A DNA stretch of 48,859 nucleotides from Pirellulales bacterium (lineage in GTDB: Bacteria > Planctomycetota > Planctomycetia > Pirellulales > JADZDJ01). Every line of letters starts with the position of its first letter. The stretch's first letter is position 1. Under the pieces are notes generated by a model that made no database searches, was not told where the DNA came from, and saw only the letters and a program-made list of their open reading frames with translations. The stretch is from the NCBI GenBank assembly GCA_035656635.1, contig DASRSD010000077.1, positions 1 through 48,859 on the forward strand. The letters are read 5' to 3'. The translations under genes and the position numbers were made by a program. This document shows, one piece after another, positions 39,721-46,331 of this stretch.

Positions 39721-40059
39721 TTAAATCGCCGAGGCGTTAGTTTCGCCGGTGCGGATGCGGACCACGTCGGTCAGCGAGCTGACGAAAATTTTGCCGTCGC
39801 CCACTTGGCCGGTGCGGGCCGCGTTCACGATGGCGTCAATCACACTCTGAGCATCTTTTTCGTCGGCCACCACCTCAAGCTTAACCTTGGGAAGAAAATC
39901 GACGGCATATTCCGCGCCGCGATAGGTTTCGGTGTGCCCCTTTTGGCGGCCGAAGCCGCGCACTTCGGTTACCGTCATGCCTTGCACGCCTTTGGCACTG
40001 AGCGCGTTTTTTACTTCTTCCAATTTGAAGTGCCGGATTACCGCCTCGATCTTTTTCAC
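39721..40059 (-). CDS. glnK: PII nitrogen regulatory protein GlnK/GlnB
   Basis: This is a 112-aa PII protein. It starts at GTG 40059 with an AGGAGA site eight bases upstream, and the sequence aligns along its length with E. coli GlnB. The T-loop reads [20 protein letters not shown] and keeps Tyr51 (in GAEY), the uridylylation site, although modification in this group is not proven. C-terminal ligand-binding residues are visible as GDGKIFV. PII proteins sense 2-oxoglutarate and ATP/ADP and close Amt channels by inserting the T-loop. It directly follows amt1, so GlnK is the expected partner of the Amt1 trimer. Confidence 0.95.
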
Positions 40060-40126
40060 GGGAATTCTCCTGGATCAGGAATCTATTTGTGAGTGAGAAG
40101 GATTTACCGCCGTTTTAGTAGCGCTC

Positions 40127-40156
40127 CGCTCCGATGGTGCATGCACCATCGGAGCG
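40127..40156. other. Perfect 30-bp palindrome between amt1 and glnK
   Basis: CGCTCCGATGGTGC followed by its exact complement gives a 30-bp dyad centred on GCATGC without a loop. It lies between the amt1 stop and the glnK ribosome-binding site on the minus strand. It may trim or attenuate the amt1-glnK transcript, or serve as a protein site. No T-tract follows it. Confidence 0.55.
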
Positions 40157-40202
40157 AGACGTCAACGTGATTGACTTTACCTTGCAGAACGTTTGACAGA
40201 AA

Positions 40203-43129: not shown

Positions 43130-43165
43130 GGGCAAATGCCGCAGATTAACTCAGAACGAAGGGAT

Positions 43166-44806
43166 TCAAGCCAACGAATCTTCTACATCTAAATTAACCT
43201 GCGGGCTTTGTTGTGGGCAGGGCAGTGAGATAATAAATTCGGCGCCTCCGGTGGGACGATTGGCCGCCCGAATGTTTCCCCGATGCGCCTGCACAATGCC
43301 TTGGCAAATGGGCAACCCCAGGCCGATGCCGCGCTGGCCGTCGGCAACAACTCGCGTGCCCCGATAAAATTTTTCGAACAGCTTGGTGGGGTTTCCTGCG
43401 GGCAGGCCGGGGCCGTTGTCGGCCACGATGATTTCGGCGATGTCGCTGCGGCGGACGGCTGAAATTTGGATCCGCGTGCCCTGGGGCGTGTAACGGATCG
43501 CATTTTCCAACAAGTTGGCCAGCACCTGCTCGATGAGGTCGGCCGCGACCCACAGCATGGGAAAGTCGTGTGGGATATCTACGGATACACTGTGTCCTTG
43601 CAATTCCCCACGCAGCCGCGCCAGCACCACGCCAATCAGTTCCTCCAGCACCTGCCAGTCGCAATTCAGCACCAAGGTGCCGGAGTTCAGGCGGGCCATT
43701 TCCAACAAATTATCGACCTGCCGGGATAGGCGGTGCGATTCGTCGACCACGGTTTGCAGCATTTCGCGGTTGGCGGGGGACTGGGGATCGGTGGAATGAT
43801 CGAGAATGCTGGAAGCGGTCACCGCGATCATTGCCAGCGGCGTGCGTAAATCGTGCGAAACGGAACTTAGCAGCGCATTACGAAATTGTTCCGCCTGAAC
43901 GTGCAGTTGAGCTTGCTGAACTTCTAGCCGAGATTGATCACGCTCAATCGCTAGAGCGATCAGGCTGGCGCAGGTTTCCAGCATGCGCCGCTCTTCAGGA
44001 TCGAACAACCGATTCACATCGCCGGGGCGGACCGCCAGCACTCCCATGAGGCGCTGCGATCCAATCATCGGAATCCACATGGCCGTGGCATCCGGGAGCA
44101 GGTCGGTTCCCAGTCCGCCGCTGCGGTGGTTTTCGGCCACCCAATGCGCTGCAGCTAAATCGGCCGGGTTGCCAGCCACGATGGCTTCGCTGCCAAACCG
44201 CACTAGCAGTTCGCCGTCAGGCTTGGGCAGCAGCAACACCACCTCGCCGCCAAACACTTCAGTCAATTGCCGGCCGGCACGGGGAACGAGAAACTCGGTC
44301 CCTGCCAATTCGCTTAATTGGCGCGTCATACGATAAAGTTGGGTGGTACGGCGTTCTTGGCGTTGCGATGCACGAAATTGCTCCTCCGTTTGCCGCTCGT
44401 GCTGTTGCGAGGAACGTAGCTGTGTTTGCAGCCGGGCGGTAAGTTCGCTGATGAGGATGCCGATTCCCAACATCACGCCCAGTGTCACAATGTACTGCGT
44501 ATCGCTGCGAGAAAACGTGAACCGCGGCTCTACAAAGAAGTAATCGAATACTAACACGCTGAGTACCGCCGCTGCAATTGCCGGCCCGCGGCCAAACCGC
44601 GCCGCCACCAGGGCCACGGCCGCCAGAAAAATCATGGCGATGTTCGTCGACGTCAGCCCGACATGGTCACTAATCCAAGCCAGCAAAGCGCAGCTGGCGA
44701 TGACGGCCGTCGTGGCGGCGTAGCGCTGCCAAGAAACGGAATCGCTGCGTGCTGCGGCGCTGGACGAAGAGGCTGGGGTTCTCGGTTGCTCGTCGACATT
44801 ACGCAT
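43166..44806 (-). CDS. KdpD-like sensor histidine kinase lacking KdpD/USP input domains
   Basis: This is a 546-aa histidine kinase. It begins with a four-helix DUF4118 membrane domain as in KdpD (helices about 29-46, 53-70, 75-91 and 104-122), followed by a coiled linker and a GAF-like region (about 165-290). Then come the H-box SSVSHDLRTPL (His318), the N-box LLENAIRYTP, G1 DNGPGLP and G2 GIGLGLPICQG. True KdpD proteins also have an N-terminal KdpD ATPase-like domain and a USP domain of about 350 residues; here only 28 residues precede the membrane part. Its ATG at 44806 lies inside the end of amt2 (8-bp overlap), so it is translated with the ammonium channel. This is an unusual partner for a KdpD-like kinase. 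Confidence 0.9.
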   Translation of the reverse strand: MRNVDEQPRTPASSSSAAARSDSVSWQRYAATTAVIASCALLAWISDHVGLTSTNIAMIFLAAVALVAARFGRGPAIAAAVLSVLVFDYFFVEPRFTFSRSDTQYIVTLGVMLGIGILISELTARLQTQLRSSQQHERQTEEQFRASQRQERRTTQLYRMTRQLSELAGTEFLVPRAGRQLTEVFGGEVVLLLPKPDGELLVRFGSEAIVAGNPADLAAAHWVAENHRSGGLGTDLLPDATAMWIPMIGSQRLMGVLAVRPGDVNRLFDPEERRMLETCASLIALAIERDQSRLEVQQAQLHVQAEQFRNALLSSVSHDLRTPLAMIAVTASSILDHSTDPQSPANREMLQTVVDESHRLSRQVDNLLEMARLNSGTLVLNCDWQVLEELIGVVLARLRGELQGHSVSVDIPHDFPMLWVAADLIEQVLANLLENAIRYTPQGTRIQISAVRRSDIAEIIVADNGPGLPAGNPTKLFEKFYRGTRVVADGQRGIGLGLPICQGIVQAHRGNIRAANRPTGGAEFIISLPCPQQSPQVNLDVEDSLA

Positions 44807-46331
44807 CTAAAATTCCGCTTTTGAGCACGAAATCGGGATATGCCAGAGTGCCCATTTCGCTGCCGTCCAGTCCCTGCAATTCGGCATCACGGCTGACACG
44901 CAACGGCGTGATGAGGGCGCTGAGCTTGAAGCAGCCATAAGCTACGAGAAATCCGAACACAATTAGCACGCCCGCTTCAATCAGTTGTGCCGTCAATTGG
45001 CTGGCGTCGCCGTAGAACAGACCGCGCACGCCATCAGCGCCGGACTTGGAAAAAACTTCCCGGGCCACTCCGTTCCAGCCGGCGCCAAATTTGCCATTGG
45101 CAAACAACCCGACGGAAATAACTCCCCACAACCCAGCCACGCCGTGCATGGAAACCGCGCCCACCGGATCGTCGACGCCAACTTTATCCCAAAACAGCAC
45201 GCTGATAATGATCAACACACCGCCTACAACGCCAATTACAAGCGCCGCCCACGGGCTCACAAAAGCGCAGGCGCCGCTAATAGATACCAGGCCTGCCACC
45301 AGACCATTGCACATCAGCGTGGGATCGGGCTTCTTCACGGTGGCCAGTAAATAGAACATTGCGCCCACCGCGCCTCCGATACCGCCCAGCAGCGTGTTCA
45401 CAAAGACCGAGCTGAGCTGCAAATCGGTGCCCGCCAACGTGGCGCCGGCGGTCATTCCGAACCAGGCAAATAGCAAGATGAGGGTGCCGACGACGACGTA
45501 AGGAATATTGTGGCCCGGCATGGCACGGGGGCGGCGGTTCACAAATTTTCCCAACCGCGAGCCAATGCAAATGGTGCCAGCCAAACCAATGATTGCCCCC
45601 ATGGCGTGAATGACGCCGGAACCGGCGAAATCGACCGCGCCGTGACCCAAGTTCCAATTTTTTCCCATTTGGGCGAGCCATCCGCCTCCCCAAACCCAAT
45701 TGGCAAACAATGCCAGCGGCACAATCACCCAAAAACCGTACAGCACGAAGCTGCGCCAGGCCCAGCGCTCCGCCATGGCGCCGGTGGGAATGGTTGCGGC
45801 GACCATCAGGAAAGCCGACATCAAAAAAAACAGGGCCAACACGCCGGGCGTGTACAGTCCCGTTAGCGCAAAGCCCGTGGCGCCAAACAGGCCGAAAATC
45901 GATGTGTCGGGCGCGCTGGCTTCCGAGCCGAAGCCAATTCCGCGATTGAGTTGATTCAGCTCGCTGCCTAAGGCGGTCGACCAGCCAGGCGGGGCCAGGC
46001 CGCCGGCTAAATTTCCCCAGCCGAGTGCAAATCCGTACAAAAAAATCGCGCAACCGGCCAGCGGCACAATCATCAAACTCATAGCAAACATGTGGGCGGA
46101 ATTCTTGGGGCGATTCATACCACCGGCCACCAGCGCCATGCCCGCCGGGACAAGCAGCGTTAGGCAACCAGCAGCAAGCGCCCAAGTAATAAACCACGGG
46201 AATGATGAATTCGTGGTGGGCTGGGCGATGGGCAGCGAATTGGGTTCCTGGGCCAATGCCACTCGTGAATTCAAAGCCACAAGCAGCATGGCCAGCCCGG
46301 CCCATGAAAAAACGTTCCGCCTGCGAATCAT
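44799..46331 (-). CDS. amt: Ammonium transporter Amt2
   Basis: This is a 510-aa ammonium channel with a signal peptide (MLLVALNSRVALAQ) and a short linker. The Amt core keeps WVWGGGW, the Asp and first His in HGAVDFAGSGVIHA, and the second His in SMHGVAGLWG. It differs from Amt1 in several places: PAGMALVAGGMNRPKNSAH replaces the Amt1 form QAGFAMVEGGLCRSKNSAH (so a Glu becomes Ala), and the extra N-terminal Ala/Pro linker is shorter. The ATG at 46331 has GAGGGAG six bases upstream. It is the first gene of amt2-kinase-regulator. It may be a low-affinity channel or an ammonium sensor for the kinase, as in Amt-kinase pairs, but that is inference. Confidence 0.92.
   Translation of the reverse strand: MIRRRNVFSWAGLAMLLVALNSRVALAQEPNSLPIAQPTTNSSFPWFITWALAAGCLTLLVPAGMALVAGGMNRPKNSAHMFAMSLMIVPLAGCAIFLYGFALGWGNLAGGLAPPGWSTALGSELNQLNRGIGFGSEASAPDTSIFGLFGATGFALTGLYTPGVLALFFLMSAFLMVAATIPTGAMAERWAWRSFVLYGFWVIVPLALFANWVWGGGWLAQMGKNWNLGHGAVDFAGSGVIHAMGAIIGLAGTICIGSRLGKFVNRRPRAMPGHNIPYVVVGTLILLFAWFGMTAGATLAGTDLQLSSVFVNTLLGGIGGAVGAMFYLLATVKKPDPTLMCNGLVAGLVSISGACAFVSPWAALVIGVVGGVLIIISVLFWDKVGVDDPVGAVSMHGVAGLWGVISVGLFANGKFGAGWNGVAREVFSKSGADGVRGLFYGDASQLTAQLIEAGVLIVFGFLVAYGCFKLSALITPLRVSRDAELQGLDGSEMGTLAYPDFVLKSGILDA

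Follow-up and report, generated by a model that had tools for sequence, protein, structure and literature searches.

We describe a shortened paralogue of the KdpD/KdpE two-component system, located between two ammonium transporter (Amt) genes of a Pirellulales bacterium, that probably controls ammonium uptake. The window, meaning the whole stretch of DNA analysed, comprises 48,859 nucleotides (contig DASRSD010000077.1 of assembly GCA_035656635.1), and the genes in question lie on its minus strand: amt2 (44799-46331), a histidine kinase of 546 amino acids (43166-44806), an OmpR-type response regulator (42422-43135), amt1 (longest frame 40203-42059, with an ATG at 42008) and glnK, encoding a PII protein (39721-40059). 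We propose a role in ammonium uptake because the pair stands beside Amt genes and likely binding sites precede most of them. The explanation as a whole, to which we assign a probability of about 0.62, is that a KdpDE paralogue was re-targeted to ammonium uptake through an operator and would sense a monovalent-cation condition.

The coding regions of amt2 and the kinase overlap by 8 bp (44799-44806), and the regulator gene starts 30 bp after the kinase gene. Since amt1 has its ATG at 42008 with GAGGAG before it, the gap between regulator and amt1 is correctly placed at 42009-42421. The reading frames thus bear out the coordinates, strands and 8-bp overlap given in an initial annotation of this DNA, as well as the gap it drew ahead of amt1. 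Amt2 matched PF00909 with 277.3 bits (cut-off 23.2) and TIGR00836 with 275.3 bits, below the cut-off of 343.3, while Amt1 scored 343.7 and 343.5 bits, respectively, and GlnK 117.2 bits against PF00543.

A Pfam scan (E <= 0.001) of the window kinase returned DUF4118, GAF_3, HisKA and HATPase_c, with no match to PF02702 (KdpD) or Usp, in agreement with the initial annotation, which had described a DUF4118 kinase devoid of KdpD and Usp domains. The NCBIfam KdpD model matched the protein only over model positions 381-889 of 895, with 382.7 bits against a cut-off of 1123, and the H-box, N-box and glycine boxes are retained. A separate kdp operon (kdpFABC) with full-length KdpD and KdpE is found on contig C45 of the same genome, and the full KdpD encoded there (P0001) carries PF02702 (314.8 bits), Usp (E 0.00051), DUF4118 and the kinase domains. 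Because the same genome holds a full KdpDE beside its kdp genes, the window pair is, as read from sequence, a paralogue of KdpDE and not the kdp regulator; the earlier description of the pair as KdpDE-like therefore stands.

The five short kinases linked to Amt (G000, the window genome; G001, its congener; G046, G051 and G533; four families in total) formed one clade in a tree of 63 kinases, with bootstrap and approximate likelihood-ratio test (aLRT) values of 100/99. The clade was nested inside the full-length KdpDs, its neighbours being the kdp-operon kinases of G002 and G490. Omitted from the tree were kinases that lacked a locus, had partial matches or were lost in gene calling, for example those of G064, G065, G069, G206, G240, G314, G326, G333, G459, G564, G587, G603, G610, G628, G704 and G747. 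In the clade members other than the window kinase, PF02702 and Usp were not found even at E <= 1, the DUF4118 part is well conserved across the clade, and a GAF match is present in all five kinases, in four of them above the GAF_3 cut-off. Among the residues shared by the five are V329, T330 and Q363, at partner-specificity positions, which occur in 1, 4 and none of the 58 other kinases, respectively, and A421, where all 58 others have Asp. V329 and T330 occupy positions +11 and +12 from the phospho-His of the window kinase; the corresponding residues of EnvZ, counted from H243, are L254 and A255, reported as two of the three residues dominant in partner choice (PMC2991266).

Other short KdpD-like kinases (G042, G014, G076, G600 and G274) fall outside the Amt-linked clade, and no Amt match was found in the stretches examined around them; in G014, a glnK-like match lies approximately 4 kb from the kinase. 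Three of these, from G042, G014 and G076, make up a further clade, unrelated to the Amt-linked one, in which the kinases have regulators of their own and no Amt match was found in the stretches examined (L047 7971-10339, L048 8901-11257 and L049 9653-12021). Separately, one kdp cluster of G001 (L183 4934-15508) adjoins a frame weakly resembling a response regulator and a kinase-like frame of 621 amino acids, and the same locus holds a frame of 394 amino acids matching only about 40% of full KdpD, possibly an N-terminal-only KdpD.

The regulators point to the same descent. In a tree of 68 regulators, nine of which came from long fused frames and were trimmed to 240 residues, the six Amt-linked regulators formed one clade (97/83) matching the kinase clade, and in an earlier tree of 65 regulators, five linked ones stood beside the KdpEs of G000, G490 and G002. 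The window regulator scored 253.8 against the NCBIfam KdpE equivalog, below the cut-off of 325. Its signature residues are M22, F29, V89 and H202, the first three of which are present in five of the six linked regulators but absent from the 61-62 others; the exception among the linked ones is G605, which differs at each of these positions. Counted from the phospho-Asp, M22 presumably corresponds to OmpR L16. The recognition helix of KdpE is described as including Y191 (PMC3264566), and at this position five linked regulators have His and one has Asn, whereas 56 of 61 others have Tyr and one has His. Changes in specificity residues and in the recognition helix are what one would expect of a duplicated pair as it becomes separate from the parental one. 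Taken together, trees, domains, residues and gene order show a history in which the KdpDE pair appears to have been duplicated within this order, the kinase to have lost its N-terminal serine-kinase and Usp part, the partner-specificity residues and the DNA-reading helix of the regulator to have been altered, and the pair to have become attached to Amt-GlnK genes.

We searched for the kinase in 97 relatives and in genomes of the phylum (392) and of the order (396), and for amt2 and the regulator in 396 genomes of the order. These are draft assemblies, 58-97% complete and with up to 5% contamination, and only part of the first-look candidates were scored (e.g., 14, 3 or 7 per genome), so absences are soft. 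The initial annotation had proposed to check conservation of the amt2-kinase-regulator order, and this holds in part: the arrangement is not unique to the window genome, but among the 396 genomes of the order it was otherwise found only in the congener G001. There, apc625 (a permease gene upstream of amt2), amt2, kinase and regulator are kept in this order with protein identities of 73, 78, 79 and 89%, respectively, and amt2 overlaps the kinase gene by 1 bp. Since order and junction overlap are kept in G001, and the ratio of nonsynonymous to synonymous substitution rates (dN/dS) between G000 and G001 is 0.06-0.17 for amt2, kinase and regulator, the amt2-kinase arrangement is not a matter of chance.

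The wider conserved unit is kinase-regulator-Amt(-GlnK). It appears as kinase-regulator-amt-glnK-amt-glnK in G533, as kinase-regulator-amt without GlnK in G051, with a CitMHS_2 transporter gene between regulator and amt-glnK in G001, as a kinase remnant followed by regulator-amt-glnK on contig C315 of G046, and as regulator-amt-glnK in G605; on contig C285 of G046, an intact kinase stands beside CitMHS_2 and an Amt with a broken or misread frame. What is left of the kinase in the G046 remnant (L180 8442-8914) is the DUF4118 part and the final 36 residues, the kinase core having been lost. By tblastn, which was used for all Amt and GlnK neighbourhood counts, each of the six linked regulators has an Amt gene downstream, and GlnK is present in five of the six genomes. 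The linked Amts fall into three lineages, A (G000 amt1, G533 and G046 C285; 66-77% identical), B (the distal Amt of G001, G051 and G046 C315; 63-78%) and C (G605), with 34-52% identity between them. Because the linked Amts span these lineages, the linkage has persisted with differing Amts, and the tie between the pair and Amt genes seen in the initial annotation extends to other genomes. In 15 of 16 neighbourhoods of other KdpD-family kinases (8-20 kb; L007, L008, L047-L049, L051, L059, L102-L109 and L142), no Amt match was found; in the remaining one, L059 (G051 C77), an Amt lies 9.8 kb away, and L048 holds a glnK-like match. In the stretches examined, the pair stands beside Amt and not kdpA, which lies elsewhere in five of the six genomes and was not found in G605 (58% complete). 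A kinase search of genome contigs returned six loci, of which the closest two (Methylococcaceae and Legionella) encode full-length kinases and have no Amt match.

The half-sites of Escherichia coli KdpE are given as TTTATA-N5-TTTACA (PMC3264566). A scan for direct repeats with a period of 11 found KdpE-like tandem sites before linked Amt genes, with a shared promoter form of CATAAR-N5-YATAAR on one strand; an expectation-maximisation motif search returned a scattered motif and missed the operator. Five of the seven linked Amt promoters score 11 or 12 out of 12 and two score 10, as compared to one of 22 control Amt promoters (that of G529) scoring 11. The consensus was shaped by three of the seven tested promoters (G001, G051 and G046 C315) and not by G605, and the lengths of the regions favour the controls, which are longer (472 bp vs. 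161-412 bp). In a genome-wide search, which is the stronger test, with the first letter widened to H to admit the window site, HATAAR-N5-YATAAR gave 11 matches in the six genomes (four in G000, three in G001, two in G046, one each in G051 and G605, and none in G533), and the reversed pattern, used as a control, gave 47. In five genomes, one match each (five of the 11) falls in the stretch that separates the linked Amt from the gene before it; G051 and G605 have no other match in the genome, and that of G605 is on the strand opposite to the gene. The window site, AATAAAAACTTTATAAA (42277-42293, minus strand), consists of tandem half-sites with an 11-bp period, 128 bp past the regulator stop and 268 bp before the amt1 ATG, and thus lies inside the region 42009-42421 singled out in the initial annotation. 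Two further matches (G000 C86 and G001 C104) stand ahead of one and the same APC permease gene, which in G001 is present as a tandem pair with the match before its second copy. No candidate operator was found in six kdp upstream regions (best scores 8-10 out of 12) or in the region before amt2 (8 in G000 and 9 in G001). In G001, where 7 of 55 candidates were scored, no regulator other than the Amt-linked one was found at E <= 1e-60, which makes the latter the natural candidate for both G001 operator sites. We infer that the regulator putatively binds the tandem site and that the linked Amt would be its target.

We therefore envisage the following mechanism. Upstream of the Amt genes and of one APC permease gene, the phosphorylated regulator would bind tandem YATAAR half-sites that recur every 11 bp and, judging from the conservation of the sites, would set the transcription of these genes. 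The DUF4118/GAF part would sense a monovalent-cation condition, with ammonium or the K+/NH4+ balance as the likeliest candidate, and in the genus of the window, the pore-altered Amt2 would be made together with the kinase as an accessory and possibly, as the data weakly suggest, a co-sensor. Several observations weigh against this proposal. G533 has no strict match, its best sites scoring a non-significant 10/12 (p 0.11), and the Amt beside the G046 C285 kinase likewise scores 10/12 (p 0.13). The control promoter scoring 11 belongs to a genome, G529, in which the searches of the order returned only full-length KdpD, and when the three consensus-shaping promoters are left out, the contrast at scores of at least 11 is 2/4 vs. 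1/22. For four of the 11 matches, no connection with Amt or the APC permease is apparent, and the second target, as well as the permease gene apc691 of the locus, points as much to K+ as to NH4+. Finally, no kinase match was found in the 560 bp ahead of the G605 regulator, and the kinase beside the G046 regulator has lost its core.

The nature of the signal is where the explanations diverge. A DUF4118 domain re-tuned to ammonium or to the K+/NH4+ ratio, in a system directly controlling Amt genes through a KdpE-derived operator, with the pore-altered Amt as an optional co-receptor in one genus, is possible but on balance doubtful. A somewhat less likely alternative is that the pair has kept the KdpD-type response to K+ or ionic strength and controls Amt together with cation permeases, since NH4+ and K+ would affect each other in uptake and toxicity; ammonium itself would then not be the signal. 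In its favour, the kinase retains DUF4118 and GAF, and the best solved-fold match of apc691 is KimA, which imports K+. The operator also precedes an APC permease with a Usp domain in G000, a 56% identical homologue of which is encoded directly upstream of a full KdpD-KdpE in G774. KdpD is reported to perceive K+ inside and outside the cell, ionic strength and ATP (PMC5458449), and Kdp of M. smegmatis to be induced by high NH4+ and Na+ (PMC5401905). The location of the pair beside Amt and not kdpA, and the six kdp upstream regions without the operator, speak against an unchanged K+ role. Alternatively, cytoplasmic nitrogen status could reach the kinase through GlnK or the GAF part, with DUF4118 as a mere anchor. 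GlnK downstream of Amt in five of the six genomes and the GAF matches of the five kinases would fit, but the DUF4118 part is well conserved, and since Amt-GlnK pairs are common without this kinase, the GlnK linkage is not informative; we regard this explanation as distinctly unlikely.

The initial annotation had proposed that Amt2 could act with the kinase as an ammonium sensor. In its stronger form, the pore-altered Amt2 would bind ammonium and signal to the kinase by contact, as a split counterpart of Ks-Amt5 of Kuenenia, in which an Amt protein is likewise coupled to a histidine kinase (PMC5764959). Amt2 retains W148, D160 and both pore His (H168 and H318; AmtB positions) and has M293, T294 and A297 at AmtB F215 (the Phe gate), N216 and S219 (the S1 site); M, T and A are also found in G001, which in addition has Leu at F107, and amt2 is under purifying selection. 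In contrast, the pore residues of Amt1, and of the Amts linked to the pair in the other genomes, are standard at the positions covered. Together with the gene overlaps in the two congeners, the altered pore would suit a sensor role, if weakly, as F215A/H/E/S/W are reviewed as abolishing AmtB transport (PMC10433425). The same review reports that S219A enhances uptake, and the variants considered here do not include F215M. Furthermore, the Amts beside apc625 in G018 and G034 and an Amt of G528 have altered pores without this kinase, so the pore change tracks apc625 at least as well as the kinase. Since the linked Amts of G533, G051, G046 and G605 lie downstream of the regulator and have standard pore residues at the positions covered, an upstream Amt2 does not belong to the system in general, and the proposal is not supported as stated. 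Ks-Amt5 is moreover one fused polypeptide with Amt as the sensor, while in the window Amt and kinase are encoded separately and the kinase has a DUF4118 membrane domain of its own. Hence, we consider Amt2 unlikely to be the sensor, though less so than cytoplasmic nitrogen status is to be the signal. A common origin of amt2 and the apc625-linked Amts of G018 and G034 as one old lineage was rejected (approximately unbiased test, p 0.011), with long branches in play.

The pair could also have remained beside Amt genes by inherited order alone, with no regulation. All known carriers come from a single order, the five kinases and six regulators make a small sample, and the draft state of the assemblies adds to this doubt. 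Nevertheless, the link persists across three Amt lineages while the detailed order varies, and operator matches precede linked Amts in five of the six genomes, making such hitch-hiking very improbable as compared to a re-targeted KdpDE paralogue.

Compared to KdpD/KdpE, the window pair has the same DUF4118-GAF-HisKA-HATPase kinase and OmpR-type regulator, is nested inside the family in both trees and has a candidate operator resembling the E. coli KdpE half-sites (PMC3264566). It differs in lacking the PF02702 serine-kinase and Usp domains, in its changed specificity and DNA-reading residues, and in being linked to Amt-GlnK instead of kdp genes. In E. coli, the lost N-terminal domain of KdpD is reported to phosphorylate KdpB (PMC11018627). 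As in EnvZ/OmpR, where few residues set partner choice (PMC2991266), two positions (phospho-His +11 and +12) are changed in the window clade, with the difference that specificity is here read from sequence alone. GrtK/GrtR of Burkholderia glumae, likewise a two-component system, is proposed to detect external ammonia with no Amt module involved, but according to the same source it has a PilS-like membrane domain and a Fis-type regulator, and amtB expression is independent of it (PMC12918730).

Direct bacterial sensing of external ammonium is described as still debated (PMC12918730). If the pair does sense ammonium with a KdpD-type domain, K+ and NH4+ sensing would share one module, and a comparison of the two paralogous kinases of one genome would reveal the residues that choose the ion. 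The locus is also a small natural example of how a two-component system, once duplicated, has apparently been insulated from its parent, with changes at swappable partner and DNA-reading positions. Among the literature matches listed, covering titles and abstract openings and few subscription journals, no KdpDE-type pair controlling Amt genes was found.

The complete transcription order on the minus strand is apc625, hairpin, amt2, kinase, regulator, amt1, glnK, apc691 and the CitMHS_2 transporter gene. apc625 (46601-48478; PF13520, 91.4 bits) encodes an APC-type amino acid permease and is a neighbour of amt2 also in G001. The terminator-like hairpin between apc625 and amt2 (46525-46557, minus strand) has 15 pairs and is largely kept in G001; as a class, such hairpins show no excess in the region (16 found vs. 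17.3 expected). Sigma-70-like sites were uninformative (5 found vs. 5.9 expected), and an Rfam scan of 35000-48859 gave no match at the gathering threshold. apc691 (37424-39499) encodes an APC-fold permease that had no Pfam match and gained no name from a PDB sequence search; its structure model (mean predicted local distance difference test score, pLDDT, 74.5) gave the KimA match by Foldseek at E 2.6e-13 and a template modelling (TM) score of 0.51 by query length. It was found in 33 of 97 relatives and is absent from the G001 locus. The CitMHS_2 transporter (35563-37191; PF16980, 472.6 bits) adjoins the kinase or regulator in G001 and G046 too.

Around apc625, a PP2C-like gene on one side and an altered-pore Amt on the other are shared by G001, G018 and G034 (L043 4022-8387, L061 11330-15751 and L062 4276-8545), a neighbourhood that holds with or without the kinase pair. 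Members of the operator-bearing APC permease family are found at L105 4498-10606, L227 5490-8093 and L228 3427-8094. At the left end of the window (1-7273, minus strand), the genes resemble a Pst/PhoU phosphate uptake operon, as judged by eye.

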